Below, piece by piece: positions 28,971-56,110 of a DNA stretch of 64,000 nucleotides. The notes beneath the pieces were generated by a model. The model was not told the DNA's origin and made no database searches. It saw only the letters and a list, made by a program, of their open reading frames with translations. Numbering within the stretch: the first letter of the stretch is position 1; each line of letters starts with the position of its first letter. The position numbers and the translations under genes were made by a program. Source of the DNA: Clostridia bacterium (GTDB lineage: Bacteria; Bacillota; Clostridia; RGIG6154); contig JAFQQW010000059.1 of NCBI GenBank assembly GCA_017410375.1, forward strand, positions 1-64,000. Reading direction: 5' to 3'.

Positions 28971-30611
28971 ATGCAACACACAATTTGTGTAAAAGAATTT
29001 GTCGCTTTACCCACAAACGATGCCACACCCGGCATTTTAAAAGCCATACAGAAAGCAAAACAGGAGCAGGCGTCGGTTTTAGAATTCGAGGCAGGCATTT
29101 ATCCGTTAAAATCCCACAACCCATTCAAAACGGATTTAACCGCACACGATGCAGGCGCAGAGCTTCTGCCCGAAAAGGATGTACACATTCTCCTTTGCGG
29201 TTTAAAAAACATCACGATACGCGGTGCAGTTGACAAAGAGGGCAATCCCGCAACCGTCTTATCTGCAGACAACAACTTAGAACTTCACAGCCTTCTCCCC
29301 TCTTTGCTCTGGATGACCGACTGTGAAAATATCACCGTCGAAAATTTCAAATTCAAGCGCGACCCGGAATTCTGTTCGGCAGGACGCGTGACCAAAATCG
29401 AAAACGATACCCTTTTCTTAGAGGTTTTCGAGGGCAATCCCTGCTATGATAATATGGGTACCCATTGCATGAACCGCTTCACCCCCGAAGGGGAATTAAA
29501 CGGCGAAAGCCTTTCCTACGGACCGGGGCTTGCGGAAAAATTCAGACTGGTGGGCGACCGTCTGCTTTCGTTAAAGGACGAAAAAGTTGCCTCCCGCGTA
29601 GAAACCGGTGATATCATAACCTTCCACCAGGGAGCAAAAACCGACTTTCAATGCTACTTTGGTGCAAGCAAAAACGTAACCTTGAAAAATTTACACACCG
29701 TAAATGCCAACGGCTTTGCCTTTCTTGCCTTTGACATTCGCAATCTCACCATTGAAAATGTAAAATTCAAACCGGAGGGCAACCAGTATTTCACCGCCCC
29801 CAGAGATGCTTTTAAACTGCACAAGTGTCAGGGCGATATCTTTGTAAATCAAATGTATATCGAGGGTGTGCGCATGGACGGGCAGAATATGCACTCCAAT
29901 TTTCTGTTCCCCGTGGCACAGAAGGATAAAAACACCCTTGTTCTGTTTTCCCGCTATGCCTACCTCAAGCTTCCCGAAAACACAGAAATGGAATGCTATG
30001 CAAAGGGCGAAGAATCGCTTTTTAACATCCTTAGCGTAAAGAACGCAGAGCCTGCAACCTTAGATGACTATCCCGGCTACAACTACACCGTTACCTTTAA
30101 AGAATCTCTTGAAGGCATGGATATAAGTGAAGCTCTGTTTTTAGCCCGTGCCTGGGAGCCTGATAGCTATGTTTGCGAAAATTCCGTATTTACAAACATT
30201 GCAGGTGCAGGTCACCTTTCCAGAATTGACCATATGCGTATCCGCAACTGCACCTACAAAAATTTAATGAACAGCGGTATCTGGCTGGGTGTGGAATTCC
30301 CGAGCCATGTGGAGGGCGGAAATGCAACCGATATCGAAATCGAGGGCTGTACCTTTATCCATTGCGGAAACACCTCCCGTTGCGGTGCCGGAGGCTGTAT
30401 CGGTATGAATTCTTATCAGTTCGATGCATATCACAACAGAGATATCCGCATCCGCGACTGCATTTTCAAAGACAGCGACATCGGTATAGACGTTCAGAAC
30501 GCACAGGATGTACATATTGAAAATTGTACTTTTTCGGGCGTAAAAAACGAAATCTGTACAAATAATTGCAATTCGGGAAAAATTTATGTTGATTTGCAAC
30601 AGATTTTGTGA
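28971..30611 (+). CDS. Right-handed beta-helix protein, probable glycosidase (GH110-like)
   Basis: A 546-residue protein without signal peptide. Many rungs of a parallel beta-helix are visible: NITIRGAVD, WMTDCENITVENFKFKRD, ASKNVTLKNLHTV, IRNLTIENVKF, DHMRIRNCTYKN, TDIEIEGCTFIHCG, RDIRIRDCIFKD and DVHIENCTFSGVK. The order, with a beta insertion at about 310-390 and the segment FCSAGRVTKIENDTLFLEV, resembles GH110 alpha-1,3-galactosidases, but the assignment is by eye. Such enzymes use acidic residues of the helix face to release terminal sugars. It has a strong promoter with two upstream direct repeats. murA follows, from a promoter inside this gene's 3' end. Confidence 0.65.
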   Translation: MQHTICVKEFVALPTNDATPGILKAIQKAKQEQASVLEFEAGIYPLKSHNPFKTDLTAHDAGAELLPEKDVHILLCGLKNITIRGAVDKEGNPATVLSADNNLELHSLLPSLLWMTDCENITVENFKFKRDPEFCSAGRVTKIENDTLFLEVFEGNPCYDNMGTHCMNRFTPEGELNGESLSYGPGLAEKFRLVGDRLLSLKDEKVASRVETGDIITFHQGAKTDFQCYFGASKNVTLKNLHTVNANGFAFLAFDIRNLTIENVKFKPEGNQYFTAPRDAFKLHKCQGDIFVNQMYIEGVRMDGQNMHSNFLFPVAQKDKNTLVLFSRYAYLKLPENTEMECYAKGEESLFNILSVKNAEPATLDDYPGYNYTVTFKESLEGMDISEALFLARAWEPDSYVCENSVFTNIAGAGHLSRIDHMRIRNCTYKNLMNSGIWLGVEFPSHVEGGNATDIEIEGCTFIHCGNTSRCGAGGCIGMNSYQFDAYHNRDIRIRDCIFKDSDIGIDVQNAQDVHIENCTFSGVKNEICTNNCNSGKIYVDLQQIL

Positions 30612-35753: not shown

Positions 35754-38700
35754 TTACTCAATTATATCACCGAGTGGCGTAAAGCTTCCGTTTCCGTACA
35801 TGGAACGGTTCCACAAGAATGCTTTCTGATTTTCTTCTAAAGTCAGCTCATAGCCGTCAAAGAAGCTTGCGTAGCCGTTTTCCACATGGTCAACGCCTAA
35901 GAATGCACCGTTTTCGTCATAGTTTGCCACAACGATTCGAATCAGGCTTGCGCCGTTTGCCAGAAGCAGGAATTTGCCCTCCTGCATCTTAAAGTCAAAC
36001 ACCTTGCCGTCGGCATTTTTGTTTGCCAGATACAGGTTGCTGTGGTCATACACCTCATTTACGAATACGCCTTCTTTGTGGAGGTTGCCGTTTTCGGTTG
36101 CATATACCCAGTCATCGCTTTCCTTGCTCACATTCAGCATACTCTGTATATGCAAATCGGTTCTGTCATCCGCACGCACAACCGCATCCACCGGCACGCC
36201 CTGCATAAACAGCTTTTCGCCCTTTTTAACCGTATACCCGCCGTTGGTGGTTACATTGGTTTTCAGCGAAACAAAGCCTGTAAGCTTTGCACCCTTAAAG
36301 AATGCCGTTGCACTGTCGGTATCGCCAAACTGCATCAAGCCGGGAAGCTTAGAAGTTGTCAGGCAATATTTAAGCTTATTGTCCAACGTACCTGTCGCAC
36401 TCAGCACCTCGGACGCGCGAATGGGTGCAAAGTTTTCTGCCGTTTCCGCTTCCTTTTCAGCGGTTGTAATCACTGCATTTTGCGGAATGGGCAGCATGGA
36501 TGCCGCATATACCCGCTTACCGTTTACAAAAATATCGTTTGCGGTCACATCAAAGTCGGCATCTGCCGTTATCACCGCATCCAAAACGGTCGCTTCTTTC
36601 TGTATACCGCCCAAAACGCTGTTTATATCGCTTGTTTTTCCGTTCACCTCTGCCGTATACGGCTTTGCGGTAACAGAAACACCGTTTACGGTAGCTGTGC
36701 CTTCTGTAAGCGTAACCTTTTCAAAATGATTCTGACACAGTTGGTCAAGCAAGGAATGGTTAAACAGATTCTGCTCATAAAGCAATGCTGAAGGACTTTC
36801 GTTCACCGGAACAAACGCAAAAGCTTCTACTCTCGCATGTCCCGAAGAACTGTTGTCTATCTGTACAAAAATCGGTTCACCTGTCTTTACATCCACCGTT
36901 GCAATCGCACCGCTTACTGTCATGCCATCATCCCAGAACCAGCTGTTGATATTAAAATCATCACTTGCTTTTGTCGGTGCTGTGTCGAATCTGAAAGTTT
37001 GTCCGTTGATATTGGCTTTGAGTGGCCGACTGCCTGCGTTTGTATCCTTGCGAAGCGCATACACCTTATATTTTCCTGTCATGTCGGACGTAAATACCCC
37101 GAACGGACCTTTCAGTATCGAAATGGTGGCATTATTATAATAGAATGTAAAGTTACCCTCGCCTGCACCGCCATTGACTAACTTATAGGCGTTTGCTTCA
37201 TAGCCGTATTCGCCACGGTCAAGGGCTTCTGCCGTTAAGAATTTTGTGCCCGTGGGGAACGAACCTATCTGTATGGTCCCCTCGCCACGTTCTGCAGTAA
37301 TCTTACCCCCCAAAACGGTCATAGCCGGTACAGAAACCAGCTGACTTGCCGTAAGGCTTTCAACCTCTGCAGGCTGTGCCACCCCGTTTGCATCATACAC
37401 CGTTGCAGAAACAGCATGCTCTGCAATATCCGCAAACGCAAGCTCTAAACACAGCATGGTTTGGGCAGAATTGAGTCTTACATACCGAACCGGAACATCC
37501 GCAAAGGTAATTTCTGCTACTCTTCCCTCTTCCACAAGACCTGTGTTTTTCAGGGTTGCACGCACGGTCATGCCCTTAAGGTCTGTATTTTCGATACTGC
37601 CTGCGGTAAAGTTGTCAAAGCTCTCATAGCCGAGGGCTTTTTCCTGACCTGCCTTAAGAACAACCGCAACGCCTTTTTGTCCCACATAGCTTGCAGAGCC
37701 TGTGCCGTTTGTGGTAAGCTCTACACCGTTTTTCGGAATGCTTGTGGGTGCTGTAACCGTTATTTCGTTATTCACCGTTTCGGTTGCAACAGGTTCAACT
37801 GTAGCCGTTTCGGCAAGAGTTTTCACCGAGCCGTCTCCAAAGGTGGTTTCTACGTTAAATTCAATGCCCTTTGCAGTGTTTTCCGCAGGAATAAAGAATT
37901 CATACGGGAATGCAGTATCGGTCACCTCATTAAAATTCTCTTCGCCTGCAAAGCGCCATTTCAAAGTGGTGCTTACAATACCCTCATCGGCACCGTCACC
38001 GCCACCTACTGCACTGTTTCCGTCTTCATCCACAAATGCAACCTGCTCGGTGGAACGACCGCCCACAAAGATATAACCCATATAATTTTCGGGGTCGAGT
38101 GCCAAAGCATACGCCTTTACATCATATCCGGTATTCGCACTGTAAATATGACTACTGTTTACAGGTGTATAGGTTTCGCCCTCATACATCAAACCGATGG
38201 CAGAATTGCCCATATCCATCTGCGCACCGTCGGAGGACGCATCAAAATCAATGGAGGCATAAGCAGGCTCCGTAATGCCCGTACCGTTTACCGCAACAGT
38301 TACAAGACCTTTTTTCGGAACGGTTACCGTCAGCGCGTTGTTTTTAACGGTGGCCTCGGTCACGTTGCCCTCTGCATCGTAAATGGTTGCTGTACCTTTT
38401 ACATTTAAGTCTGCGTTAAAGGTAAGGGTTACCGTTTCATTGTTGTCCCCTGCGTTGGAAAGGGCAAAAGCCGCTCTGCCGTTCTTTCTGCCTGCAATCC
38501 AGTCGATTTGCTTGTTATCTACCGTTACCGTGCCTTCCTTCAGCCACGGCCACATATCGGTTTCATCATACATTTTGCCCGCTTCTGCGCCGTATGTACG
38601 GTTATTAAACCAGGCATAGCCTTCTGAACGGACATACGGGAAATCAATCGCACCGTCTGATTTTACATAGGCATTGGAGAACAGATAATCCTGTACAGAA

Positions 38701-41700
38701 GCCAGCAAAACAGGGATGTGATGGAAATAGAACTGTGTGGTGTCATATCCTTTATAGGGGTAATCCGCAAGACCCGGAGTCGGATTATAATTGAAGATAT
38801 AATAACCCGGATAGTTTGCAAATCTGCCTACCAGCGAGGATCTTGCAAGGTCCATCATCAGCTGATCGTCCGAATGGTAACCCAGTCTTAACAGCTCAGG
38901 TGCAAAGGTAGACATATAAATGTTATCATTTCGGCTGCCGCAAGTGCTGAACTGTTCCAAAGAAAGACCAACCCTTGCCGTTACCCATTCAGGATATACT
39001 GCCGCACTGCCGTCTGCACTTAAGGCGCCGGGCGCATACGCACCTTCACCCAAAGCATTGGCAGGCACCTTTCTGTAATACTCGGAATCGTTTTTGTAGG
39101 TGGGATTTGCATAATCCTTCAGCACCGCACCGCGTCTGTAGCCTGTATTTCCGTACCACCAGCAACCGTTTCTGAACAGTCTGGTTTCCAGCCACAGTTC
39201 TTCGGTATCTGCGGTACGCATAACCTCTTTGCTTTCGGACATATCGGTCGCACGAAGGGTTGGAAGTAATCTTCTCGCGCCCTCGATTGCCGCATCTAAA
39301 TATTTGGTTTCGCCCGTTGCCTCATACACATCCATCATAGACGGGAAATGCGGGAAATAGCTGATGTTTATAAAGGTTGATTCATCCACAAAATTGCTTG
39401 CAGAGCTGAATGCTCGTTTGCTGTAATATTCATCCGCCAACGCTTTTGCATTGGTTAAGTCGGAATTTCCCATGGCATAATCGTAAAAGAGCGCTTCAGC
39501 CGGACTTTTTAAGGAATTCACACCGCCCTTTTCAATATTGGAGTTTTTAATGCCGTCCTGCGCTAAGTTGCGGAATACGGGCATCAACCCACGCGACAAG
39601 CGGTATGCACCTTCAAAGGTTGTGTTGCCGGCCGGTGTATCGCTGGTAACCAGAGATTTGTTGATGGGACCCTCCGAACGGTATTCGTAGGTGTATTCTC
39701 CACTCATATGCGGACCGCTTCGGGTGAGCATGGTTGCCATCATGGGAAGCGTTCTGTCCATCAGCAAATCCTTATCCTCGGTTAACAGATAATACTGCAA
39801 ATACGCATGGGGATTGGAATTGGTAACGGTGTAGGTATCTTCAATGTTATAATGGCCAATCAAATCCTTGTCCCAACCGCTGGCAGAATCGTCTTTTAAG
39901 AGATTTAACAGATTGAATGCGGTATCGGTCATGGAGGCATAGAAATTGTCACGGTAATCGTAAACGCCTCTTAAATCGGTCGCCACATGCGCATACATTT
40001 TATACCAGCCCTGATTTTCACCCTCAGACGAAACGGATGCCAACGGACGGTAGGTAAAGGTATAGGTTGTACCCACCTCAAAATCTGCATCGGTTGTACC
40101 GAAAAGGGGTGCAAAAATGGAGGGCTGTACGCCGCCGTTATAACCGACCGTACCCATACCAAAGCCCGAAACTCTGTCATACATATCAATGTAGATCGCT
40201 TCTCTGTCCGCGGTTTCCTTGTTGTCATAAAATTCGCGGTTCTGATGCCATACGTTGTCAATCTCTGCTTCATCCGCCGCAACACCCAAGGAAATCTCCT
40301 GCCCTGCCTCATTCATCTTATAGGTCATCTGGGTGTGGTTGGTGGTAGAAGTTGCCTCACGGATTAACACACCGGGGTCGGGATATCTGCTTTCCTGATA
40401 ACGGAACGGATTTAAGATGTAGCCCACTTCTTCTTTATCAATTTCATTGACATTGTTAAACATACCAAAGGAATACACGCCTGTTTTTTTAGCGGTGTAG
40501 GTTACCGCAACCTTTGGTTCTTCATCGCCTTCTGCCAAAGACCAGATGGCTTCTGCTTTGGCATATTCGCCCTCGGCAGTCATTTTCACACTGCCGTCAG
40601 AAAGCTTTTCCATGCTGCTTGGTACTAACCATTCGGGTATACCTGCACGGAACACGTTCTCGGTTACAATTTCGTAATTGCTTCCGCTGGGGATGGTAAA
40701 TACGTTTCTGAAGTTTGCGTAATACGCGGTGGTCTGGTCATCGGTGGTTTTATTTGCAAACAGGGATAAAAAGCCAAAGCCCTCTTCAAAGGTATTGGTT
40801 GTAACCCCGTCGGTTACGGTTTGGCGCTGTACGGTTTTTGTGCCGTCTGAAAGCGTACCCTCTTTAAAGGTAACCGAAACTTTAGCATTGGAAAGGGTGA
40901 TTTCTTCTTCTACAGAAGAAAGCGCAGCCTGATATTTTTCGGGAAACTTTACTTTATCATCATACGGCGAACGCGCATCAAAGTTCAGACCAAACTGCAT
41001 TGCGGTTTCCATATCGTTGCTCGGCACATAATAGGGATCACGGGTCAGCACAATAGCATCCACTCTTGCGTACTGACTCTTTGCTTTAAGCTCGATTTTA
41101 AGCTTGCCGTCGGTTACCGCCACGGTATCACCGGGGTACCCCATCTTTTCCCATGCCCACAAAACCTTTGTTTCATCCTCGGGCTTAGAGGTATCCTGGG
41201 GATAGCAATGGGTACCGAACTGAGATAAATACACACTGCTGTCACCCGTCTTTTTAAATTCATTGCCGTTAAGCTTTAAAACAAAACGGCGTGAGCCTGT
41301 TCTGTAATAGGGATAGTCACCGGTATGTACATACACATAATAGTTGCCGTTTGCAACCTCAAACTCCTGATATGCTGTGGTACTGTCGGTATCTACAGCG
41401 GTCGAGCGAAGCATCAGCTCCTTATATGACTCAGGGGACGAATCGCGAAGCCAGCTTCCCAACTCATGAAAATTATCGGGCGAAATTGCATAGGATTCAT
41501 AGGCATTCGGCACCAGTTTAATTGCAGAAAAACGAGTCACTCCCGTATGCGCGTCACCGGTTACCTGAACGGTTTTTGCACTGCCGTCTAAATAAACCGT
41601 ACCAATTTTAAGCCAGGAATGCGCCTGTCTGTATGCCGATGCATGACAAAAGCTTTCTTCTGTTTCGGACTTGGCATTCAAAAGATTCACTTTCACGCCC

Positions 41701-42323
41701 ATCTCTGTGGTTTCAGCATTGCCGACAGAGGGGATATAGTAATAAATATCCACCGCGCCGTTTAAAGCGGTCGGCACATCCCAACGCATATTGATGGTAG
41801 TGCCTGCACCGTACCAGTTGACGCTTTGCTTATAGCCTGCAACGGTCGTGCCCGATTTGGTCACACCTGCAGAAACCGAAGCATCCGCCTGATAGAAAAT
41901 ATATTCTTCTCTTTCGGTGATGCGGAGTGCACCCACACATCTGTTTGTATTGTTTGCGGTAATTGTTACCGTTCCGCCTGCCGTAAAATCGAATCTGCCA
42001 AGGGCATAATAGCCGTTACTGCTTGCAGTAACAGATGTTTCCTGTTCTCCGACTTTTGCGGTAATGTGCATCCCGTCATACAGATAAATTTCTGCATCCG
42101 AGGTGGCAGAGGTGGTGTTACCCACCGTAAAAGTCAGGGTTGCCCCTACCTCGTTGGCGGTTGCCTTGTTATCGCTTACCGTAAACTTTGAAGCCACAGC
42201 CTGCGATACCTCGTAAACCGTTTCAATTGCCTGTGCGGGCACAATCTCCGCGCCAAATGCCGAAACCGGAAACAGCGCCAGACATAAACTGCACACAAGC
42301 AATACGCTTAACATCCTTTTCAT
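35754..42323 (-). CDS. Giant secreted multidomain protein, probable glycan-degrading enzyme
   Basis: A 2189-residue exported protein with a signal peptide (MKRMLSVLLVCSLCLALF, cleavage after FGA near residue 25). Residues ~30-430 contain two or three beta-sandwich units that look like carbohydrate-binding modules (YYVYVHTGDYPYYRTGSRRF; SQYARVDAIVLTRDPYY). Residues ~435-800 are beta-rich, followed by an alpha-helical, aromatic-rich region at ~800-1260 (DYTYEYRSEGPINK, CWWYGNTGYRRGA, PGLADYPYKGYDTTQFYFHH). The beta-supersandwich plus helical toroid order is that of several glycosidase and lyase families, but none was recognised. Residues ~1270-2189 are further beta domains. No LPxTG, SLH or dockerin was found. 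Confidence 0.7.
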   Translation of the reverse strand: MKRMLSVLLVCSLCLALFPVSAFGAEIVPAQAIETVYEVSQAVASKFTVSDNKATANEVGATLTFTVGNTTSATSDAEIYLYDGMHITAKVGEQETSVTASSNGYYALGRFDFTAGGTVTITANNTNRCVGALRITEREEYIFYQADASVSAGVTKSGTTVAGYKQSVNWYGAGTTINMRWDVPTALNGAVDIYYYIPSVGNAETTEMGVKVNLLNAKSETEESFCHASAYRQAHSWLKIGTVYLDGSAKTVQVTGDAHTGVTRFSAIKLVPNAYESYAISPDNFHELGSWLRDSSPESYKELMLRSTAVDTDSTTAYQEFEVANGNYYVYVHTGDYPYYRTGSRRFVLKLNGNEFKKTGDSSVYLSQFGTHCYPQDTSKPEDETKVLWAWEKMGYPGDTVAVTDGKLKIELKAKSQYARVDAIVLTRDPYYVPSNDMETAMQFGLNFDARSPYDDKVKFPEKYQAALSSVEEEITLSNAKVSVTFKEGTLSDGTKTVQRQTVTDGVTTNTFEEGFGFLSLFANKTTDDQTTAYYANFRNVFTIPSGSNYEIVTENVFRAGIPEWLVPSSMEKLSDGSVKMTAEGEYAKAEAIWSLAEGDEEPKVAVTYTAKKTGVYSFGMFNNVNEIDKEEVGYILNPFRYQESRYPDPGVLIREATSTTNHTQMTYKMNEAGQEISLGVAADEAEIDNVWHQNREFYDNKETADREAIYIDMYDRVSGFGMGTVGYNGGVQPSIFAPLFGTTDADFEVGTTYTFTYRPLASVSSEGENQGWYKMYAHVATDLRGVYDYRDNFYASMTDTAFNLLNLLKDDSASGWDKDLIGHYNIEDTYTVTNSNPHAYLQYYLLTEDKDLLMDRTLPMMATMLTRSGPHMSGEYTYEYRSEGPINKSLVTSDTPAGNTTFEGAYRLSRGLMPVFRNLAQDGIKNSNIEKGGVNSLKSPAEALFYDYAMGNSDLTNAKALADEYYSKRAFSSASNFVDESTFINISYFPHFPSMMDVYEATGETKYLDAAIEGARRLLPTLRATDMSESKEVMRTADTEELWLETRLFRNGCWWYGNTGYRRGAVLKDYANPTYKNDSEYYRKVPANALGEGAYAPGALSADGSAAVYPEWVTARVGLSLEQFSTCGSRNDNIYMSTFAPELLRLGYHSDDQLMMDLARSSLVGRFANYPGYYIFNYNPTPGLADYPYKGYDTTQFYFHHIPVLLASVQDYLFSNAYVKSDGAIDFPYVRSEGYAWFNNRTYGAEAGKMYDETDMWPWLKEGTVTVDNKQIDWIAGRKNGRAAFALSNAGDNNETVTLTFNADLNVKGTATIYDAEGNVTEATVKNNALTVTVPKKGLVTVAVNGTGITEPAYASIDFDASSDGAQMDMGNSAIGLMYEGETYTPVNSSHIYSANTGYDVKAYALALDPENYMGYIFVGGRSTEQVAFVDEDGNSAVGGGDGADEGIVSTTLKWRFAGEENFNEVTDTAFPYEFFIPAENTAKGIEFNVETTFGDGSVKTLAETATVEPVATETVNNEITVTAPTSIPKNGVELTTNGTGSASYVGQKGVAVVLKAGQEKALGYESFDNFTAGSIENTDLKGMTVRATLKNTGLVEEGRVAEITFADVPVRYVRLNSAQTMLCLELAFADIAEHAVSATVYDANGVAQPAEVESLTASQLVSVPAMTVLGGKITAERGEGTIQIGSFPTGTKFLTAEALDRGEYGYEANAYKLVNGGAGEGNFTFYYNNATISILKGPFGVFTSDMTGKYKVYALRKDTNAGSRPLKANINGQTFRFDTAPTKASDDFNINSWFWDDGMTVSGAIATVDVKTGEPIFVQIDNSSSGHARVEAFAFVPVNESPSALLYEQNLFNHSLLDQLCQNHFEKVTLTEGTATVNGVSVTAKPYTAEVNGKTSDINSVLGGIQKEATVLDAVITADADFDVTANDIFVNGKRVYAASMLPIPQNAVITTAEKEAETAENFAPIRASEVLSATGTLDNKLKYCLTTSKLPGLMQFGDTDSATAFFKGAKLTGFVSLKTNVTTNGGYTVKKGEKLFMQGVPVDAVVRADDRTDLHIQSMLNVSKESDDWVYATENGNLHKEGVFVNEVYDHSNLYLANKNADGKVFDFKMQEGKFLLLANGASLIRIVVANYDENGAFLGVDHVENGYASFFDGYELTLEENQKAFLWNRSMYGNGSFTPLGDIIE

Positions 42324-42439: not shown

Positions 42440-42468
42440 AGTATATCATAAAAATAAAATACAGTCAA
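42440..42468 (-). promoter_or_regulatory. Promoter of the giant gene
   Basis: Minus strand TTGACT (42468-42463), 17-bp spacer, TATACT (42445-42440). A second TATAAT on the same strand occurs nearer the gene (~42363-42368) without a good -35. Confidence 0.7.
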
Positions 42469-42472
42469 TTGC

Positions 42473-42500
42473 TTGACATATAAAAATTTGGTGCTATAAT
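42473..42500 (+). promoter_or_regulatory. Promoter of the GHL6-like glycosidase gene
   Basis: TTGACA (42473-42478), 16-bp spacer, TATAAT (42495-42500) with a TGC extension. Its -35 box is only 4 bases from the -35 box of the divergent giant gene. Confidence 0.8.
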
Positions 42501-42522: not shown

Positions 42523-44361
42523 ATGAAACACGAGCGTTATTTCGGTTTGCATTTCGACTTTCACGCAGGCAATACCGCAGAAATTGGTTTAAACACCATC
42601 CCCGAAGATATTGAAAAATATATTACAGACAGCGGAATTGATTTTATTCAATGCGATTGCAAAGGGCATCCGGGCAACACTTGTTATCCGTCTGCTTTGG
42701 GTAATTCTGCCGATAATTTAAAGGCAGACAATTTAAAAGTGTGGGTAGATACCGCCAAAAAGCATAATCTCCCTATTTACATGCACTATTCGGGCGTAAT
42801 GGATACCCGATATCTGGAAAAACATCCCGAACAACAGGCAACCCCCGGCAACCACAGCAATGCCGTTACTTTGTTTGGTCCTTATGCAGACGACCTGCTT
42901 ATTCCGCAGCTTAAAGAATTATCCGATAAATACGGCGTGGCAGGGGTCTGGATTGACGGGGACTGCTGGGCAGTAGAGCGCGATTCTTCCGCATACGCAA
43001 AACCGCACTTAAAAGAAAATATGACCGAGCAGGAACACAACGAAATGATGCGGGAAGCGTACACAAAATATTTAAAGCATTATGTGGATGCCCTACATGC
43101 CCATAACCCCGATTTTGTTGTGGCAAGCAACTGGGCTTACACCTCTTATATGCCCGAATCCATCAAAGCGGATGTGGACTTTTTATCGGGCGATTACCCC
43201 AACTATAACAGTGTACATATCGCCCGCTACGAGGCGCGCTGTATTGCAAACCGCGGAAAACCCTGGGATTTGATGGCATGGGGGTTTGAATGGACACACG
43301 GAACCGAAAAACCGGCACCGCAACTGATGCAGGAAGCCGCTATGACACTGTCTTTAGGCGGTGGTTTTCAGGTTTATGTAACCCAAAACAAAGACGGCAG
43401 TGCCAAACGCAGTTTAAATCCGCGCTTTATTCCTTTGGGCAAATTTATGAAAGAGCGCAAAGCATTAAACTTCAAAAAAGAACCCTTTGCAGAGGTTGCC
43501 CTTTACTGTGACGAGCATTCCCGTTATGCAAACAGCAATATTTATAATGCCGCAGGTGCTACAAACGCTTTAATCGGCGGTCTGGAATGTGTATTGGACG
43601 CACAATACACCGCAGGCATTTTGTATACCTATCAGTTAGACGAACAGCTTAAAAATTACAAAGCAGTTTATGTGCCCGAATGGGAAGAAATCCTGCCCGA
43701 AAACAAGCAAAAACTGCTTGAATTTGCCAAAACGGGCGGTCACTTAATTGTAAGCGGTGCCAAAACCTGTATGCAATTTTCCGCCTCTCCTTTGGGCGAT
43801 TTGGTTGAAAACACGCGGGTAAATCTATTGGGCAACGACCAAAGCTTTGCGTTGCTGAACGAAGGGGACACCATTAAACTTACCGAAGGAAATGGTGCAC
43901 TCTGCGCTTTAGCCGATTTACGGTATCCCTTCGGCAAAGCTTACCGTACCGATTCGCTTGAAAAGGGTAAAATTACCTATATTCCTTTTGCTCTCGGCTT
44001 GAATTATTATGACCATAAAAACTATATGTTTACTGACCTGATTCGAAACATTTTAGGTACACCTGTCGTTGAAATCAACCAAAAATACATAGACATCACC
44101 TTGCAGAAGGATGCTGACGGCGTGACCGTGAACCTGATTAATCTCCTGCAGGGCAGACACAGCTTAAACTATACCGTTTACGATTTTGTGCCCGAGCGGT
44201 ACGGTGTAAAGGTTAAAATCCACGGTTCTTTCACCGATGTAAATCTGCCTCTCGGCGAAGCCCACACCGTAAAAATCCACAGAGATTACGTAGAAATCGC
44301 GTTAGAAAAACTTGAAATTCATTCTTTGATTCAACTGAAAGGAGACCTAAAATTATGTTAA
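42523..44361 (+). CDS. GHL6-like glycoside hydrolase
   Basis: A 612-residue cytoplasmic protein (no signal peptide). The start RYFGLHFDFHAGNTAEIG is typical of the hypothetical glycosyl hydrolase 6 (GHL6) TIM barrels. A candidate acid strand GVAGVWIDGDCWAVERD lies near residue 145 and DFLSGDYPNYNSVH near 220. From ~330 a beta-galactosidase trimerisation-like (glutaminase-fold) domain follows (YKAVYVPEWEEILPENKQ, GGHLIVSGAKT), then a beta domain. Fucosidase-like or galactosidase-like activity is possible. ATG 42523 is used since AAGGTG lies 6 bases before it and an earlier ATG at 42499 is at the promoter. It overlaps the next gene by 7 bases. Confidence 0.75.
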   Translation: MKHERYFGLHFDFHAGNTAEIGLNTIPEDIEKYITDSGIDFIQCDCKGHPGNTCYPSALGNSADNLKADNLKVWVDTAKKHNLPIYMHYSGVMDTRYLEKHPEQQATPGNHSNAVTLFGPYADDLLIPQLKELSDKYGVAGVWIDGDCWAVERDSSAYAKPHLKENMTEQEHNEMMREAYTKYLKHYVDALHAHNPDFVVASNWAYTSYMPESIKADVDFLSGDYPNYNSVHIARYEARCIANRGKPWDLMAWGFEWTHGTEKPAPQLMQEAAMTLSLGGGFQVYVTQNKDGSAKRSLNPRFIPLGKFMKERKALNFKKEPFAEVALYCDEHSRYANSNIYNAAGATNALIGGLECVLDAQYTAGILYTYQLDEQLKNYKAVYVPEWEEILPENKQKLLEFAKTGGHLIVSGAKTCMQFSASPLGDLVENTRVNLLGNDQSFALLNEGDTIKLTEGNGALCALADLRYPFGKAYRTDSLEKGKITYIPFALGLNYYDHKNYMFTDLIRNILGTPVVEINQKYIDITLQKDADGVTVNLINLLQGRHSLNYTVYDFVPERYGVKVKIHGSFTDVNLPLGEAHTVKIHRDYVEIALEKLEIHSLIQLKGDLKLC

Positions 44362-45206
44362 TTTCAACCGAAATTGCTTCCGCCGCAAGGCTTGTGGGCG
44401 AAGAAAAAGCCATTGAATTTTACGCAAAGGCAGGCTTTGATGCCTGGGATTTTCCCACACATCTCATGCTTCCCTTTGATTGGGATACCATGAAATTTAC
44501 CAAAACCAATCACCCTCTTGCAGGCAAGGATTATCTGAAGCATGCAAGAAGGCTTAAAAAAATCGGTGAAGACAACGGCATACATTGCAATCAGTCCCAC
44601 GCACCAGCTCCGTCCTCACTCGGTATTTGTGACCATTTAAAACGTGCCATTGAATGTACCGCAGAGGTTGGTGCGGAAATTTGTGTTTTCCATCCGGACA
44701 TCTACACGGATGTGGCAGGCAACACCGAGTTATTTTCAGCTCTTTTGCCCTTTGCCAAAGAGCATGGGGTGAAAATCGCCATTGAAAACCTGTTTGCCTG
44801 GGAAAAAGGAAGCCCCGATGCCTCCCCGACCGCCTGCTCAACCCCCGAAAGCTTTGACGCCCACTTAAATGCGATAAACGACCCGGATTTTGTGGCGTGT
44901 CTGGATGTGGGACATGCAGAAATGCTAAAGGATGCAACCTCTGCCACCCGATTGATTTACACTTTAGGCAATCGGTTGCAGGCCCTGCACATTCATGACA
45001 ATGACCGCCATGGTGACAAACATCAGATCCCCTTTTCCATGCAAATTGATTTTGATGCCATCGTTAAAGCCCTGAAGGACATCGGCTATACCGGCTACCT
45101 CACCTTAGAAGCCGACCGTTATCTTGCTGATTTTACCCCTGAAACCGCTTTTGAGGGCTGTAAAAACTTAGCTGCCTCCGCAAGAAAACTCGCCGGCATG
45201 TTTTAA
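44355..45206 (+). CDS. Sugar phosphate isomerase/epimerase-like TIM barrel
   Basis: A 283-residue member of the xylose-isomerase-like TIM barrel superfamily (AP endonuclease 2 fold). Metal-ligand patterns are present: Glu in IAIENLF, Asp/His in CLDVGHAEM, His in LHIHDNDRHGDKH and Glu in TLEADRY. Members are tagatose or psicose epimerases, inosose dehydratases and sugar isomerases. Its gene overlaps the GHL6-like gene by 7 bases, and AAAGGAG lies 10 bases before the ATG, so it probably processes the sugar that the glycosidase releases. The substrate cannot be read from sequence. Confidence 0.88.
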   Translation: MLISTEIASAARLVGEEKAIEFYAKAGFDAWDFPTHLMLPFDWDTMKFTKTNHPLAGKDYLKHARRLKKIGEDNGIHCNQSHAPAPSSLGICDHLKRAIECTAEVGAEICVFHPDIYTDVAGNTELFSALLPFAKEHGVKIAIENLFAWEKGSPDASPTACSTPESFDAHLNAINDPDFVACLDVGHAEMLKDATSATRLIYTLGNRLQALHIHDNDRHGDKHQIPFSMQIDFDAIVKALKDIGYTGYLTLEADRYLADFTPETAFEGCKNLAASARKLAGMF

Positions 45207-45255: not shown

Positions 45256-46647
45256 TTAACTCCATTCTCTGTCGTTTGCCCATTCATCATTCCATTGGTC
45301 GGTGGGTTCAAACACACCCGGATATTTGTCATGAATGTGCTCCGCAATCAGTTCTTCGTTGAGTGCATCAATGCCAAGACCCGGCTTATCGGGCACATCC
45401 ACAAACCCGTCTTTGAACAGCGGATTTTCAATGCCAATTGCCAAGTCATTCCACCAGGGCACGTCCACAGAATGGAATTCAACCGCCATCACATTCTGGA
45501 TTGCCGCCGCAGTATGGATTGCCGCCATGCAGGCAATGGGGCTTTCTGCCATGTGAATCGCCATACCCACGCCATACTGCTCGCACAGATCTCCAAGCTT
45601 TTTGGTTTCCAATGCGCCACCGATGGTGAGCAAATCGGGATGCGCCACCGAAATACCGCCACAAGCCATCAGAGGTTCAAAATTCTTTGCCAAATAGATG
45701 TCCTCGCCCGTTGCCAGCGGTACGTTACAGCTGTTTGCAATTTTTTGGTAGTGTCCTGCCAAGTGCCAAGGCTGAATATCCTCAAGCCACGCAATATTAT
45801 ACTTTTCAAGGCGCTTTGCAAACTTGATGCAGTCCTCAATTGCCACATGCCCGAAATGGTCAATGGCAAGGGGCACTTCATAGCCTGCCACCTCACGCAC
45901 CTGACGCACATACTCTTCTAAGTAATCCATCCCCTTTTCGGTAATATGTATACCTGTTGCATAATGGGGAATGGTAAAAATCTCATAGTTTTTGCCCAGC
46001 ATCAGCTCTCTGTCAATGGAACCGCTCTGATGCTGAATGGCTTTTGCGGAGTATTTCTGAAAATCCCGAATCATCCCTAAGGGCGCATTGATACACCCCG
46101 GCTCATCATACAAAAGCTCAATTCCAAGGTCCATTTTCACAATGGTAAAGCCCATATCCATTCGTTTTTTTATGGCATGCCCCATATCGGTCCCGGTGTG
46201 CTTACCGTCCACATCGGTATCCCCGTACACACGCACCTTGTCACGGAATTTACCGCCCAGCATCTGCCAGAGCGGAACACCCCACGCCTTACCTGCCAAA
46301 TCCCACAGCGCAATTTCAATCCCCGACACACCGCCACCCTGACGGGACGGACCGCCGAATTGTTTGATTCTGCGGAACAATTTGTCTACATTGCAGGGAT
46401 TTTCGCCAATCAGACGGGACTTTAGCATCAGCGCATAGGTCGCACTCGAAGCATCACGCACCTCTCCATAGCCCACCAAGCCCTGATTGGTATAAATTTT
46501 AATGAGCGGACAATGCTTGGGCGCACCGTTTAAGTTTGCCACACGAATGTCTGTTATCCTAAGCGCGGACGGATTCGAACATACATTCACGTTTTCTGAA
46601 ATCATTTCATTTAAATTCAGATTTTTTTCATTGGAATTCAGATTCAT
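45256..46647 (-). CDS. Mandelate racemase/muconate lactonizing enzyme family protein (sugar-acid dehydratase)
   Basis: A 463-residue enolase-superfamily enzyme. The capping domain begins LRITDIRVANLNGAPKHCPL; the barrel carries the three magnesium ligands in AIDHFGH (Asp), WLEDIQPW (Glu) and ATGEDIYL (Glu), and the general acid-base candidates Lys in TIVKMDLG and His in MAIHMAES. This set resembles sugar-acid dehydratases (galactonate, mannonate or RspA-like). ATG 46647 has AAGGAG 10 bases upstream. The first 15 residues contain a 21-base tandem duplication (NLNSNEK/NLNLNEM). The gene is divergent from an AraC regulator with overlapping promoters. Confidence 0.88.
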   Translation of the reverse strand: MNLNSNEKNLNLNEMISENVNVCSNPSALRITDIRVANLNGAPKHCPLIKIYTNQGLVGYGEVRDASSATYALMLKSRLIGENPCNVDKLFRRIKQFGGPSRQGGGVSGIEIALWDLAGKAWGVPLWQMLGGKFRDKVRVYGDTDVDGKHTGTDMGHAIKKRMDMGFTIVKMDLGIELLYDEPGCINAPLGMIRDFQKYSAKAIQHQSGSIDRELMLGKNYEIFTIPHYATGIHITEKGMDYLEEYVRQVREVAGYEVPLAIDHFGHVAIEDCIKFAKRLEKYNIAWLEDIQPWHLAGHYQKIANSCNVPLATGEDIYLAKNFEPLMACGGISVAHPDLLTIGGALETKKLGDLCEQYGVGMAIHMAESPIACMAAIHTAAAIQNVMAVEFHSVDVPWWNDLAIGIENPLFKDGFVDVPDKPGLGIDALNEELIAEHIHDKYPGVFEPTDQWNDEWANDREWS

Positions 46648-46661
46648 TTTGCATCTTCTCC

Positions 46662-46690
46662 TTGACATTTTCGTTTGATTTTACTATAAT
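46662..46690 (+). promoter_or_regulatory. Consensus promoter of the AraC-glycosidase operon
   Basis: TTGACA (46662-46667), 17-bp spacer, TATAAT (46685-46690). The -35 box lies within the leader of the divergent dehydratase gene, and the leader RNA is about 60 bases. Confidence 0.75.
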
Positions 46691-46760: not shown

Positions 46761-47621
46761 TTGCATCAGATTGTCACCGACAACACCGTTTTGCTCAAAT
46801 GCTTTTACGCAAGGGTAAAAAAGGGCATCCGTTTAAACCGGATGCACCGCCACACCGAATTTGAAATTTCGATGGTTTTAAAAGGAAAAGGCGAATACAC
46901 CACCGAAAAGGCTGTTTATCCCATGCAGGAGGGGGATATTTTCCTCTTTTCCACCGACGAACAGCATTGCATCACCAAAACCGAAAGCGAAGAGATGGAG
47001 CTTTTAACGTTGCAGTTTTCGCCCCGTTTTATCTGGGCAACCGGCAACCGCATGTTAGATTTTAAATTCTTAAAAATATTTTTTGACCGGAACGAAAATT
47101 TCAGCAACCGCCTCTTGGGCGATGCGCCGGAAGTACAGGCACTCCACCCTTTGCTTCGCACCATTGAAGAGGAGTTTTTAACCCGGAAGCCCGAATACGA
47201 GCTGATGGTCAAAGCCACCCTTTTATCGCTTTTGGTACACCTGATACGGGATTTTGACTATGTAAAGGATTCGGAGTATGCTTCACCCCGAAAGCAAAGC
47301 ATTGAAAACATGGAAAAGGTAATGGTTTATATAGACAGTCACATCACAGACGTCTTAACCTTAGACGCGCTTTCTAAAATTGCCATGATGAGCAAAACCT
47401 ACTTTTCCACAACTTTTAAGCACTTAAACGGCATCAGTCTCTGGGACTACATCACCGTAAAACGCATTGAGCTTGCCGTGGAATATTTAAAGCAAACCAA
47501 CAAAACCATGCTGGAAATCGCAACCCTTTGCGGGTATAACAACACCGCAAATTTCAACCGAGCCTTCCGCAAGGTGACGGGCAAAACGCCCAAAACATAC
47601 AGAAAGGATAAAGAATTATGA
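46761..47621 (+). CDS. AraC family transcriptional regulator
   Basis: A 286-residue AraC-type regulator. The N-terminal cupin holds RMHRHTEFEISMVLKGKGEY and YPMQEGDIFLFSTDEQHCI. The C-terminal DNA-binding part has the first helix-turn-helix at LDALSKIAMMSKTYFSTTFK and the second at TMLEIATLCGYNNTANFNRA, closing with FRKVTGKTPKTYRK. The start is a TTG at 46761, with GAGGTGA just upstream; no in-frame ATG is available near it. It overlaps the next gene by 4 bases (ATGA). It probably controls itself, the beta-propeller glycosidase and the divergent dehydratase. Confidence 0.92.
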   Translation: MHQIVTDNTVLLKCFYARVKKGIRLNRMHRHTEFEISMVLKGKGEYTTEKAVYPMQEGDIFLFSTDEQHCITKTESEEMELLTLQFSPRFIWATGNRMLDFKFLKIFFDRNENFSNRLLGDAPEVQALHPLLRTIEEEFLTRKPEYELMVKATLLSLLVHLIRDFDYVKDSEYASPRKQSIENMEKVMVYIDSHITDVLTLDALSKIAMMSKTYFSTTFKHLNGISLWDYITVKRIELAVEYLKQTNKTMLEIATLCGYNNTANFNRAFRKVTGKTPKTYRKDKEL

Positions 47622-48604
47622 ATTTCCAAGAAAAAATGTTACCCGTAAACAAAGAAGTCGGTACCTTTAGAGACCGCGGTTATTATACCTGGTGCGGTGC
47701 TATGACCAAGGAAGGTGACAAATACGGACTTTTGTATTCCAGATGGCCGTACAAAACCGGCATGAACGGCTGGGTTGTATGGTCTGAAATCTGCCTTGCA
47801 ACCTCCGACTCTGCCACAGGCCCCTTTAAATTTGAAAAAGTTCTTTTAACCCGCGAAGAGGGTGACGAAGCCTGGGACAGAGACTGCTTCCACAACCCCT
47901 GCATTCTCTGCCACGAGGGTAAATATTATCTGTATTACATGGGCAACCACGGCAACGGCGAGTTCTGGCCCCACAGAAACAACCAGAGAATCGGCTTAGC
48001 TGTAGCCGACAGCATGTACGGTCCCTACAAGCGTATGGATAAGCCTGTTTTGGACGTTGGTGAAGAAGGCTTTGACAGCCTGATGACCTCCAACCCCACC
48101 GTGGTAAAACGTCCCGACGGCAAATTCCTTATGATGTACAAAGCGGTAAATAAAGAAGGCAATCCCCCCTGGGGCGGTGCTGTACTGGTGGGCACTGCAC
48201 TGGCAGACAAGCCTGAGGGTCCTTTTGTAAAGGCAAATGTACCGCTGATGTACAACCCCAACAATTTCTTCTCTATTGAAGACCCGGGTCTTTTCTATTA
48301 CAACGACACCTGCTACTGCTTGGTTAAAGATATGCATGGCTTTTTCACCAAAACCAACGAAAAATCCATGGCTCTCTTTACCGCAGAGGACGGTCTTTAT
48401 AAATTTGAACCCTGTGAAGATTTTCCGCTGGCATCCGACAGAACGGTTAAATTTACAGACGGCACAACCATGAAAATGTGCAATTTGGAAAGACCGCAGG
48501 TTTATATTGAAGACGGCAAGCCGAAAGTGCTTTGCTGTGCCGTTGCGGAGGACCCGGAATGGAAAATAACCTACAACATCCAGATTCCGCTGGATTTTGA
48601 ATAA
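47618..48604 (+). CDS. Five-bladed beta-propeller glycoside hydrolase-like protein (GH43/GH117-like)
   Basis: A 328-residue protein without signal peptide and with blade-like repeats: YYTWCGAMTKEGDKYGLLYS, DCFHNPCILCHEGKYYLYYM, LMTSNPTVVKRPDGKFLMMY, SIEDPGLFYYNDTCYCLVKD and LERPQVYIEDGKPKVLCC. This W/D-x-N-P and P-x-y...D-G-k/Y-Y-L pattern is that of clan GH-F/GH-J five-bladed propellers such as GH43 and GH117. Candidate acids are Asp in AWDRDCFHNP and Glu in FSIEDPG. The precise family is not certain. It is cotranscribed with the AraC gene and followed 18 bases later by lepA. Confidence 0.75.
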   Translation: MNFQEKMLPVNKEVGTFRDRGYYTWCGAMTKEGDKYGLLYSRWPYKTGMNGWVVWSEICLATSDSATGPFKFEKVLLTREEGDEAWDRDCFHNPCILCHEGKYYLYYMGNHGNGEFWPHRNNQRIGLAVADSMYGPYKRMDKPVLDVGEEGFDSLMTSNPTVVKRPDGKFLMMYKAVNKEGNPPWGGAVLVGTALADKPEGPFVKANVPLMYNPNNFFSIEDPGLFYYNDTCYCLVKDMHGFFTKTNEKSMALFTAEDGLYKFEPCEDFPLASDRTVKFTDGTTMKMCNLERPQVYIEDGKPKVLCCAVAEDPEWKITYNIQIPLDFE

Positions 48605-53323: not shown

Positions 53324-56110
53324 TTATTGATCTTTATAAAGCGGTTTAAAGCTTGTCATGTTCTGCCAGAAGAACAAGCGATAGGGATTTTCTGCATCCT
53401 GCAAAGGAAGCTCGGTTACTGCCTCTTCAGGGGTGATAAACTGATAATTTACACCGTTTTCTGTGTTTTCTGCCAGAATAATTTTGCCCACATAGTACAT
53501 GGCATGTCCTAAATCCACCGAAAGCTTGCCGTCGGTTTTGGTAACCTTCGGGGCATCGTAAAGGGGTACGAGCCGAACGCCCACAATACGCATAAATCTC
53601 TCTGTGGAGGAAATTTCCATATTCACCGTTTCATTGGCATCCATATCCAGCACACAAAGCTTGTGCCAGCCGAGCGGTGCGGTTTTCTGATTTAACAGAT
53701 ACTCTGTAATTTTGCCCTGTGCATAAACCTCTATCGTCATATTTGCAGAGGCGGTTGTATAGGACGCCGAATAAAATTCAACTGCATATTTACCTTGCTC
53801 AGGCGCCTGCAAAGTATATTTCACCTTCACATCTTCCCATTTGATGTTTTCTGAGCCGGTGCCGTCCAGATACGTGTTCTTTACAGGTGTGTTGGAATCC
53901 TTCCACACACCGCCTGCATATTCTGCTTTTGTTCTGTCCAGCATAATCTGTCCGCTTACATTTTCATTATTTACAAAAATCGCATGCTTTGCATTCTGGG
54001 GTAGTGCAAAAGACGTCATGTCTTTTAACGCCCGTTGCAGAACACTTTCGTTTATCAGCGCATCGGTGTCGTGAATCATAATTAAAGAATCGGAAACTGT
54101 TACCCCGTATCCTGCCTTTTTCAGGTCGTCCGCGGTTATATACACAGCATCCTCTTCCACATCCGCCACAATGCCTGCATCTATCTTTAACGCCTGATAC
54201 GGAATGTAATACACCCCATCCTCATAATACGGCACCACTTGCTCATTGTTTTTTTCAAAGATGTAGGGGCTGTTTTTATACATAAAAATGCAGTTGCTGA
54301 GCATAACGCTTACCGCCTCATACACCGCATGTACCTCTTCATCATTGAGACGGAATCTGGATACGCGAAAATGCCCCGTCTGTCCTTCAACAGATTTTAA
54401 GGTCACCTTAAGCACTTCTCCTGCGTTTAGACTGTACCGTCCCAAAGAAAGCCACGCATCTGCAGAATTTACCGAGGTATCCAGCTCAACGGTTTTTTGC
54501 GTACCGTCGGGCAATTCGATAAGATAGGTTTGCTTTGAAACGTTACCGCCTGAGGGGAGATTCCGCCATTCCAGACGATACTGCCCCGTAAGCTCTGCCG
54601 GGATTTCCCAGTAAACCTCTATCGGCTCGCTGTCTTTTGTCAGCGTGGTATAGTAGGCATTCTCCAACAAACCGGATGTTTTCCATCTGCTTTCATCATA
54701 CCGCACCGCATCGGTCAGAATAAAGTGCGGACCGTTTAAGGGGTCAACACCTCTGTAATTTTCGTATTTACGCACCCCTTCGCTTTCGGGTAGCACCAAT
54801 CCTTCCTGTCTGTAAAATTCCAGACAATCTATCGAAAGAATTGTCTCTCCGTTCGACGCGGATTCCACCGCCACATAGGCGTAATCTGAAATCTCAATAT
54901 CGGTAAGCGCAACTTCTGTCCACTTTCCGCCTGCCGAAATGGCTTTATAAGCAATTTCATCACCGTTTTTATCATAAACCACAAGGCGTGCCTTGTTCAA
55001 TACGCCCGAAGTTTTAAATTTGCCCTTAAAAGTGTATTTGCCGGGCAGCAGATAGTTAAATTCCTGACCTGTAGACAAGCTGTATGGCTCTGCACTCTGG
55101 TGAATGTGATAACATATACCTTCCTCGGCACGAGGTGTTTTCTGTACTCCCGAAGCCTCTAAATCCCCTTTCACTTCAAAGCCCGAGGGATATTTGCTCG
55201 CTACAGGACGATTGTTCTCAAAATTGCCGTTGCTTAAAAGATTTGTATCCTGAATGGGCAACTGATAATAACGGAAATAATCAAACTGTGAACTGCCGAA
55301 CAAGCCGTTTTCATCCGCTTTATCAAAATCTACATCGTATGTCCCATCTTCATTTAAAAGCTTTTCCGGTTGTGCAAGCGCAGTCAGCCACATATAAGCC
55401 TGACCATACTCCTGCAGGTTTTCCACAGTTCCCCAAAGCTCACCGTTTAAATAGTAATTAATTCTGTCGGGCAACCATTCCATACCCATAACAAACCATT
55501 CTTCCGAGCAGTCAAAGGTAAGCTCTTTGCCATTATTTATAATTTCGCCTCTGGTGTGGTCACCCACAAAATAGTGTACGCATTGCGGTATTTTAGGATA
55601 CTCCCCGTCATCTCTGGAATCAATTTCAAATATGTCAATTTCCATAAAGGTATTATTTACAGGCGCATAGGCAGGTTTAGGTGTCAACGCACCATACCCG
55701 TAACCCGAATTCCAGAACGAGGTGTGCAATCCCCTTACACCGCTGTAGGCTTTTGCACGCACTTCATAGTAGCCGTAACGCAGAGTGTGATTGGTAATGA
55801 TACCACCGCCCGTAAACGCATACTGCTTCGGCGGTTCAGTTTGCTCTGTGTCTGCTTCCGCATTTGTTTCTTCAGCGGGAATTTCCGCATATTTATAATC
55901 AATATGCAAAATACCGTTTTCTACGCGGACATTTTCTTTGCGGTTTGTATCACCGCCCCGATAACCCCAGATTTCGGTATTTAACGCATCTCCGTCAAAC
56001 TCGTCTGCTAAAACCAGCTGATAATCCTCGCGCGGCGGTGCCGCAAAACAATGTGCAGCACAAAAAAGCATCGTACACAATATTAAACTGCAGAAAAAAA
56101 CTTTTTTCAT
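53324..56110 (-). CDS. Secreted GH16-family glycoside hydrolase with accessory domains
   Basis: A 928-residue exported enzyme with a signal peptide (KKVFFCSLILCTMLFCAAHC, cleavage near FAA). The GH16 catalytic domain spans ~28-285 and contains EIDIFE (nucleophile Glu157, acid/base Glu162), the beta-glucanase family motif; the enzyme should cut a beta-1,3, beta-1,4-mixed or galactan backbone. A carbohydrate-binding-like domain follows (~290-440, NLLSNGNFENN), a second beta domain (~460-600), a stalk-type copper-amine-oxidase-like unit (~605-720, FMYKNSPYIFEKNNEQ) and a C-terminal sandwich. No anchor motif was seen. It heads the operon with the AEC transporter and lipoprotein. Confidence 0.9.
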   Translation of the reverse strand: MKKVFFCSLILCTMLFCAAHCFAAPPREDYQLVLADEFDGDALNTEIWGYRGGDTNRKENVRVENGILHIDYKYAEIPAEETNAEADTEQTEPPKQYAFTGGGIITNHTLRYGYYEVRAKAYSGVRGLHTSFWNSGYGYGALTPKPAYAPVNNTFMEIDIFEIDSRDDGEYPKIPQCVHYFVGDHTRGEIINNGKELTFDCSEEWFVMGMEWLPDRINYYLNGELWGTVENLQEYGQAYMWLTALAQPEKLLNEDGTYDVDFDKADENGLFGSSQFDYFRYYQLPIQDTNLLSNGNFENNRPVASKYPSGFEVKGDLEASGVQKTPRAEEGICYHIHQSAEPYSLSTGQEFNYLLPGKYTFKGKFKTSGVLNKARLVVYDKNGDEIAYKAISAGGKWTEVALTDIEISDYAYVAVESASNGETILSIDCLEFYRQEGLVLPESEGVRKYENYRGVDPLNGPHFILTDAVRYDESRWKTSGLLENAYYTTLTKDSEPIEVYWEIPAELTGQYRLEWRNLPSGGNVSKQTYLIELPDGTQKTVELDTSVNSADAWLSLGRYSLNAGEVLKVTLKSVEGQTGHFRVSRFRLNDEEVHAVYEAVSVMLSNCIFMYKNSPYIFEKNNEQVVPYYEDGVYYIPYQALKIDAGIVADVEEDAVYITADDLKKAGYGVTVSDSLIMIHDTDALINESVLQRALKDMTSFALPQNAKHAIFVNNENVSGQIMLDRTKAEYAGGVWKDSNTPVKNTYLDGTGSENIKWEDVKVKYTLQAPEQGKYAVEFYSASYTTASANMTIEVYAQGKITEYLLNQKTAPLGWHKLCVLDMDANETVNMEISSTERFMRIVGVRLVPLYDAPKVTKTDGKLSVDLGHAMYYVGKIILAENTENGVNYQFITPEEAVTELPLQDAENPYRLFFWQNMTSFKPLYKDQ

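Follow-up and report, generated by a model that had tools for sequence, protein, structure and literature searches.

A secreted 2189-residue protein of a Clostridia bacterium and its forty-copy family of probable carbohydrate-active enzymes

The subject of this analysis is a 2189-residue protein encoded on the minus strand of contig JAFQQW010000059.1 (assembly GCA_017410375.1) of a Clostridia bacterium, within a stretch of 64,000 nucleotides referred to here as the window. On the evidence of structural models and residue conservation, it is probably a secreted multi-domain carbohydrate-active enzyme with a catalytic (alpha/alpha) toroid, belonging to a family that has expanded to 40 members in this genome. 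The open reading frame (ORF) is intact, begins with ATG and encodes a signal peptide of typical form at the N-terminus (MKRMLSVLLVCSLCLALFPVSAFGA). In the mechanism that we propose, a beta super-sandwich, an (alpha/alpha) toroid and a beta-sandwich (residues about 470-1347) would form the catalytic unit. The toroid would hold the active site, centred on Glu1123, Tyr1174 and His1202, and domains resembling carbohydrate-binding module (CBM) family 6, along with other beta domains, would hold the substrate. Between them, the 40 copies would act on the various linkages or decorations of a complex glycan, probably of plant type. Uptake of the products would follow, and their breakdown would be completed in the cell interior, for this copy by a GH29-like glycosidase (GH, glycoside hydrolase) and an isomerase-like protein.

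The paralogue family and its predicted core

The source genome (G000; 2.77 Mb in 69 contigs, 96.4% complete, with the window on contig C59) yields 60 matches to the window protein, including 40 full-length paralogues. A profile search returned 82 matches, made up of these 40, a single partial core and extra copies of the N-terminal CBM-like domain, which lie mostly within the same paralogues and in some other ORFs. The 40 genes span 205,704 bases, or 7.4% of the assembly, and encode proteins of 1231-2307 residues. A simple score, which is not a signal-peptide predictor, rates the N-terminus as strongly hydrophobic in all 40. CBM-like domains number one in 17 paralogues, two in 13, three in six and four in three, and are absent from one. 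The window core shares 21-51% identity with the other 39 cores. Within the aligned stretch, Cu_amine_oxidN1 is matched in 13 of the 40 (best 1.8e-12) and SLH in one (7.6e-12), and their restriction to some paralogues indicates that the regions flanking the core vary among copies. This family was not foreseen by an earlier annotation made from the DNA letters and their translations (the sequence-only reading).

Partial relatives also occur in the genome. A 765-residue ORF with CBM-like domains (L014:5755-8052; C53:73754-76051) matches only positions 12-197 of the 861-position core profile and, judged by this match, is a truncated or remodelled copy retaining about the first fifth of the profile. 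Two others (L022:5120-7426, 768 residues; L011:10888-13101, 737 residues) resemble only the C-terminal tail of the window protein (residues ~1520-2183), and L011:10888-13101 has no Pfam match at E<=1e-4.

The core is modelled confidently as a super-sandwich, followed by the toroid and the beta-sandwich. An AlphaFold model of residues 252-1410 has a predicted local distance difference test (pLDDT) score of 83 and a predicted template modelling (pTM) score of 0.82, and a model of residues 436-1352 built from 80 sequences (m26c409d240eb) reaches 91.5 and 0.93. Compared with solved structures by Foldseek (best E 3.1e-6) and VIA-align 2, each single core domain of the model has a known fold. In the VIA-align 2 comparison, the beta part aligns with the galactosaminidase 9ayu, which we take to be GH36 (Z 16.9, 228 residues, 3.3 Å), and the toroid aligns with the sugar epimerase 3vw5 (Z 14.4, 286 residues, 4.2 Å) and with GH76 6shd (Z 14.4, 266 residues, 3.8 Å).

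An alignment of 80 rows at 17-54% identity to the window protein has Glu1123, Tyr1174 and His1202, all in the predicted toroid, as its sole invariant columns. Half of its rows are the own copies; the other 40 are relatives that belong to Bacillota, Bacteroidota, Verrucomicrobiota, Armatimonadota or the unplaced genome bin.579. Near-invariant columns are Y1000 and T1003 (78 of 80 each), R1167 and D1212 (76 each), N1290 (74), and R868 and N804 (72 each). A second set of 42 matching ORFs from loci L039-L090, outside the alignment except that eight are re-fetched copies of its rows, reads Glu in 32 of 33 (the remaining one reads X), Tyr in 32 of 32 and His in 31 of 31 where the sites are covered; one of these ORFs comes from a Pyrinomonadaceae metagenome-assembled genome (MAG) and so adds a fifth phylum, Acidobacteriota. 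The invariance of the three residues across the four named phyla points to an active site in the predicted toroid.

Known families and candidate modes of action

The sequence-only reading had described a polysaccharide-degrading machine, built of binding-type sandwiches, a large beta region and a helical region, without a recognisable catalytic family. The protein type is supported by the fold, the invariant Glu, Tyr and His, and the SusC/SusD-like and transporter context of relatives, and the domain layout reappears, with the boundaries of Table 1, in the models of residues 252-1410. The lack of a recognised family holds in the Pfam, NCBIfam and PDB sequence libraries, where residues 430-1270 have no confident match to a known GH or polysaccharide lyase (PL) family. 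Pfam-A gave four matches to the whole protein, all sub-threshold, led by bPH_5 (19.1 bits; cut-off 22.5) and DUF5077 (15.3 bits; cut-off 24.6); the NCBIfam scan returned no family and the PDB sequence search no match at E<=1. No Pfam-A or NCBIfam family passes its curated cut-off in the catalytic core of the window protein, and none does so in the core of seven relatives, which come from Bacillota, Bacteroidota, Armatimonadota and Opitutales; the other 39 paralogues were compared with Pfam by E-value rather than by curated cut-off. DUF5695, a Pfam name considered as a lead, did not appear among the matches, and the single paper found to contain that name deals with fungal regulators. Literature searches, mostly narrow and therefore weak evidence of absence, found no published description of the family.

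Weak similarities lead to (alpha/alpha) enzymes. Family profiles A1 and A3 match only short helical stretches of such enzymes in the PDB (best E 1.8e-6), weak profile matches to GH76, GH88 and GH127-type structures fall on the helical hairpins of the toroid, and weak sequence matches occur around a YExTGxxKYLDAA hairpin. The likeness to GH76 alpha-1,6-mannanases, cellobiose 2-epimerase-type enzymes and GH127 thus lies in the toroid fold or in weak sequence matches, but the sequence matches are short and helical, and the GH76 and epimerase structures align with the toroid only. The window core has no match to GH127 (PF07944), and three relatives match it below threshold (19.1-21.1 bits versus 24.9) over 67-98 residues of the 376-position model. 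Phosphorylases that we presume to be of GH94 type (4zle, a cellobionic acid phosphorylase, and 8bou) also resemble the core: the 4zle alignment begins in the super-sandwich and extends into the C-terminal sandwich (model positions 33-917; Z 14.3, 489 residues), although at a root-mean-square deviation (rmsd) of 22.5 Å. GH94-type phosphorylases are intracellular.

As to enzymatic mode, we judge hydrolysis about as likely as not, elimination conceivable but short of probable, and any other mode improbable; we lean slightly to a hydrolase. A glycoside hydrolase outside the Pfam and NCBIfam families, in which Glu1123 would act as the acid and Asp/Glu1212, or a different acidic residue, as the base, is a serious if tentative candidate. 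Glu1123 and an acidic residue at 1212 are present in all 80 rows, the fold or weak sequence likeness leads to GH94-, GH36-, GH76- and GH127-type enzymes, glycosidase genes lie in several neighbourhoods, and no GH88/GH105 enzyme would be needed. Nevertheless, the second acid, 10 residues downstream of His1202, may have a structural role, and an invariant Tyr plus His is atypical of plain inverting hydrolases.

The invariant Tyr and His would instead be explained by a polysaccharide lyase, in which the pair would abstract the proton at C5 of a uronic acid, for example next to rhamnose, as in PL27 and PL26; we consider this rather unlikely. Both families align with both domains of the core: PL27 5no8 (Z 14.6, 456 residues) has the lowest rmsd, 8.5 Å, among the listed rows that align more than 400 residues, and the PL26 exo-rhamnogalacturonan lyase (5xq3, 5xqg) aligns over 488 residues (5xqg, Z 15.6). 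GH106 and L-rhamnose isomerase (RhaA) genes beside copies would also suit a lyase. The likeness is limited, however, by Foldseek template modelling (TM) scores of 0.23/0.29 and 8-10% identity for PL27, and by an rmsd of 25.6 Å, with the domains placed differently, and ~10% identity for PL26. The Z values of PL27, PL26, GH94 and the epimerase lie within ~1.3 of each other, so the fold by itself does not single out a family, and the absence of a family from a structure listing does not exclude it. GH88/GH105-type enzymes usually clear unsaturated uronides, and, in a further departure from the PL27 setting, the genome has no GH88/GH105 (PF07470) gene over the cut-off; its three sub-threshold matches (18.5-19.1 bits versus 26.6) all lie inside paralogues, and one relative reaches 23.2 bits. 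The PL27 L-rhamnose-alpha-1,4-D-glucuronate lyase BACCELL_00875 (5no8/5nok) is reported to carry a beta-sandwich at its N-terminus and, after it, an (alpha/alpha)6 barrel, an order resembling that of the core, and in metal-independent syn-eliminating lyases a single Tyr or His often serves as both base and acid (PMC8377490).

A non-catalytic adhesin or glycan-binding protein derived from an enzyme would fit the large size, the many beta domains, the lineage-specific expansion and the SLH-domain genes nearby, but is very improbable, as the sole columns conserved without exception in the four named phyla are the toroid Glu, Tyr and His, which is unlikely for a decayed site.

Genomic setting, control region and window genes

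AraC-family regulators accompany a part of the family. An AraC helix-turn-helix (HTH) match lies within 2 kb of 20 of the 40 copies, where ~15% would be expected from density, and 12 of these 20 have the AraC gene upstream and divergent; the binomial p of ~3e-7 is too small because it takes no account of AraC genes that serve in the count of two copies. The idea that each copy has its own regulator is therefore rejected. One AraC HTH match, at C16:1959-2162, lies 778 bases from copy L037:2940-7973, contains an internal stop codon and is possibly a broken regulator.

Carbohydrate-related genes recur near the copies. Among 113 neighbour genes, the commonest families (in the best 25 of 147) include AraC (19), GFO/IDH/MocA (4), AP_endonuc_2 (3) and SLH (3); GFO/IDH/MocA genes adjoin three copies, and a fourth copy has one no more than 1.5 kb away. 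Individual scans of chosen neighbours identified GH106, heparinase II/III, GH2, GH95, GDSL, BNR_2, SLH and a sugar transporter of the major facilitator superfamily, and the RhaA gene directly follows a pair of copies. Each of the three GH106-like genes of the genome is no more than 5 kb from a copy, a distance that takes in ~11% of the remaining genome; the chance of this is ~0.001, in a test chosen after the association was noticed. Two of the three fall below the family cut-off in the genome scan, one of them (L030:10976) scoring 38.1 bits versus 29 as a whole protein. From the GH106 and RhaA neighbours, our guess is that the substrate is a rhamnose-containing plant glycan. A marine sulfated glycan is disfavoured because the genome has only two sulfatase matches. 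Site-specific recombinase genes near copies (L026:6145-7014, L031:16497-18101) are perhaps linked to the spread of the copy loci.

Relatives elsewhere have comparable surroundings: in a Pedobacter locus they occur with GH97, GDSL and ORFs whose translations look SusC/SusD-like, and a Paenibacillus relative adjoins an SBP_bac_1 sugar-binding-protein gene. Flavin adenine dinucleotide (FAD) oxidoreductases (PF12831 in L061) stand beside relatives or one gene away in 8 of 38 loci among the matches listed, including several Bacteroidota loci and one Paenibacillus locus, and in the own genome they lie next to copy L017 and ~4 kb from copy L019. The four FAD oxidoreductases whose N-termini were inspected (L061, L071, L073, L074) have no signal peptide and would act after uptake, so we rate oxidation before cleavage (a 3-keto route) low but, given the GFO/IDH/MocA neighbours, conceivable. 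The one Opitutales GFO/IDH/MocA gene scanned encodes a twin-arginine translocation signal.

Several observations weigh against the proposed reading. Firstly, no listed solved structure fits the full core, as Foldseek TM values reach at most 0.42 among the 50 matches listed, and the match at 0.42 is to a single domain. Secondly, GH127 is matched at E<=0.1 in 24 of the 40 paralogues (best 5.9e-7; some may pass the cut-off), and these matches may reflect kinship to a known family. Thirdly, AraC is abundant genome-wide, with 115 (HTH_18) matches, which is high for a 2.77-Mb genome; 20 of the 40 copies have no AraC match within 2 kb, three of these are on contigs without any AraC match, and the AraC gene nearest to the window copy is 5.0 kb away. 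Finally, the neighbours belong to varied families, among them housekeeping or mobile genes (serine hydroxymethyltransferase, ClpB-like AAA, pyruvate formate-lyase-like, recombinases), so that they fix no substrate.

Within the window, the 2189-residue gene is the longest ORF and, as the sequence-only reading had it, shares a control region with the gene of an apparently intracellular glycosidase (Table 1). Two back-to-back sigma-70-type sites score 12/12 on the plus strand (42473-42500) and 10/12 on the minus strand (42468-42440), although the number of such sites, three versus 1.8 +- 1.1 in shuffles, is by itself not significant. The divergent gene matches GH29 (PF01120; 44.7 bits, cut-off 25.2). 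Its first ATG, at 42499, is overlapped by the -10 box of the plus-strand site, which makes 42523, preceded by AAAGGTG, the likelier start. It overlaps the xylose-isomerase-like gene by 7 bases. Further carbohydrate-type genes in the window encode a beta-helix protein with a weak GH28 match (28971-30611), a mandelate-racemase-like protein (45256-46668), a GH43 protein (47618-48604) and a GH16 protein with golvesin-type domains (53324-56110).

Table 1. Coordinates of the main gene, its predicted domains and conserved residues, and the adjoining features of the window.
Feature	Position	Strand	Basis
2189-residue secreted protein, main gene	35754..42323	-	ORF, library and genome searches
Signal peptide, residues 1-25	42249..42323	-	Read directly from sequence
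CBM6/golvesin-like beta domain, residues 273-432; 0-4 copies per paralogue	41028..41507	-	5fui CBM6, TMt 0.67
Predicted beta super-sandwich, residues 470-765	40029..40916	-	Model m26c409d240eb
Predicted (alpha/alpha) toroid, residues 772-1221, holds invariant residues	38661..40010	-	Model
Predicted C-terminal beta-sandwich of core, residues 1230-1347	38283..38636	-	Model
Glu1123, invariant 80/80	38955..38957	-	Alignment
Tyr1174, invariant 80/80	38802..38804	-	Alignment
His1202, invariant 80/80	38718..38720	-	Alignment
Asp1212, acidic 80/80 (D 76, E 4)	38688..38690	-	Alignment
Divergent sigma-70-like sites, back to back, common to main gene and GH29-like gene	42440..42500	.	Promoter-site scan
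GH29-like glycosidase, without visible signal peptide	42523..44361 (ORF from 42499)	+	Pfam, start inspection
Xylose-isomerase-like TIM barrel protein (AP_endonuc_2)	44355..45206	+	Pfam

Distribution, expansion and significance

The family is scattered, with high copy number in a few genomes; the counts given here are of matches, some of which are pieces of one gene. In the same genus, G001 has 21 matches and G002 has four, both assemblies being fragmented; G001 corresponds to the public MAG 'uncultured Clostridia bacterium E27__bin387', as loci L043 and L078 have 6306 identical bases in common. Three genomes from other genera of the same taxonomic family have none, and in a survey of 398 phylum genomes (own included; two candidates scored per genome) two others have one match each. 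A scan of genome contigs found relatives at no fewer than 38 loci. The Opitutales MAGs E27 bin281 and bin309 (2.3 Mb) have 20 and 19 matches, or 18 places each after joining neighbouring same-frame pieces, and 'bacterium bin.579' (4.3 Mb) has 41, of which 27 span 700 or more of the 861 profile positions. Whole-genome counts are 1-5 in Paenibacillaceae, 4-5 in Bacteroidota and 2 in Capsulimonadaceae. Among 54 genomes searched around bin281 (itself included), matches occur in bin281, bin309 and one other (one match), and among 61 searched around bin.579 (itself included), none besides bin.579 has a match. With almost no matches in the searched relatives, high copy number appears isolated within its lineages. 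No plasmid homologue was found for two query cores.

A quick maximum-likelihood tree of the 80 rows (Shimodaira-Hasegawa-like approximate likelihood-ratio support only, midpoint root, several rows of odd composition) places 39 of the 40 own copies in one starred branch of 48 rows, where they are joined by four rows from the same genus, three from Paenibacillaceae and two from bin.579. The remaining copy, L016:4560, clusters with a Bacteroidota subfamily. The seven Opitutales rows form a starred branch of their own, and these separate branches indicate that Clostridia and Opitutales expanded the family independently. bin.579, which contributes only four rows, in two places of the tree, would represent a separate expansion as well.

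The folds and the way of working are of a known kind, and it is the scale, 40 large members in a 2.8-Mb genome and high copy number in two further lineages, that is unusual. The unnamed status is relative to Pfam-A, NCBIfam and PDB sequences, and CAZy may already hold the family. We see a balanced case for an enzyme family unnamed in the searched catalogues, with its own Glu/Tyr/His arrangement, that would serve as a main extracellular tool of three unrelated lineages (Clostridia, Opitutales and bin.579), each expanding it separately to ~20-40 large enzymes, much as other bacteria have expanded SusC/SusD loci or cellulosome parts. If so, 7.4% of a 2.8-Mb genome would belong to one family missed by annotation based on the searched libraries, and much of the digestive capacity of this Clostridia bacterium would be overlooked by such annotation. 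With forty natural variants built on one invariant site, specificity could be mapped by comparing copies, and the large copy numbers of three distant lineages suggest that a common, poorly known glycan may be the driver.

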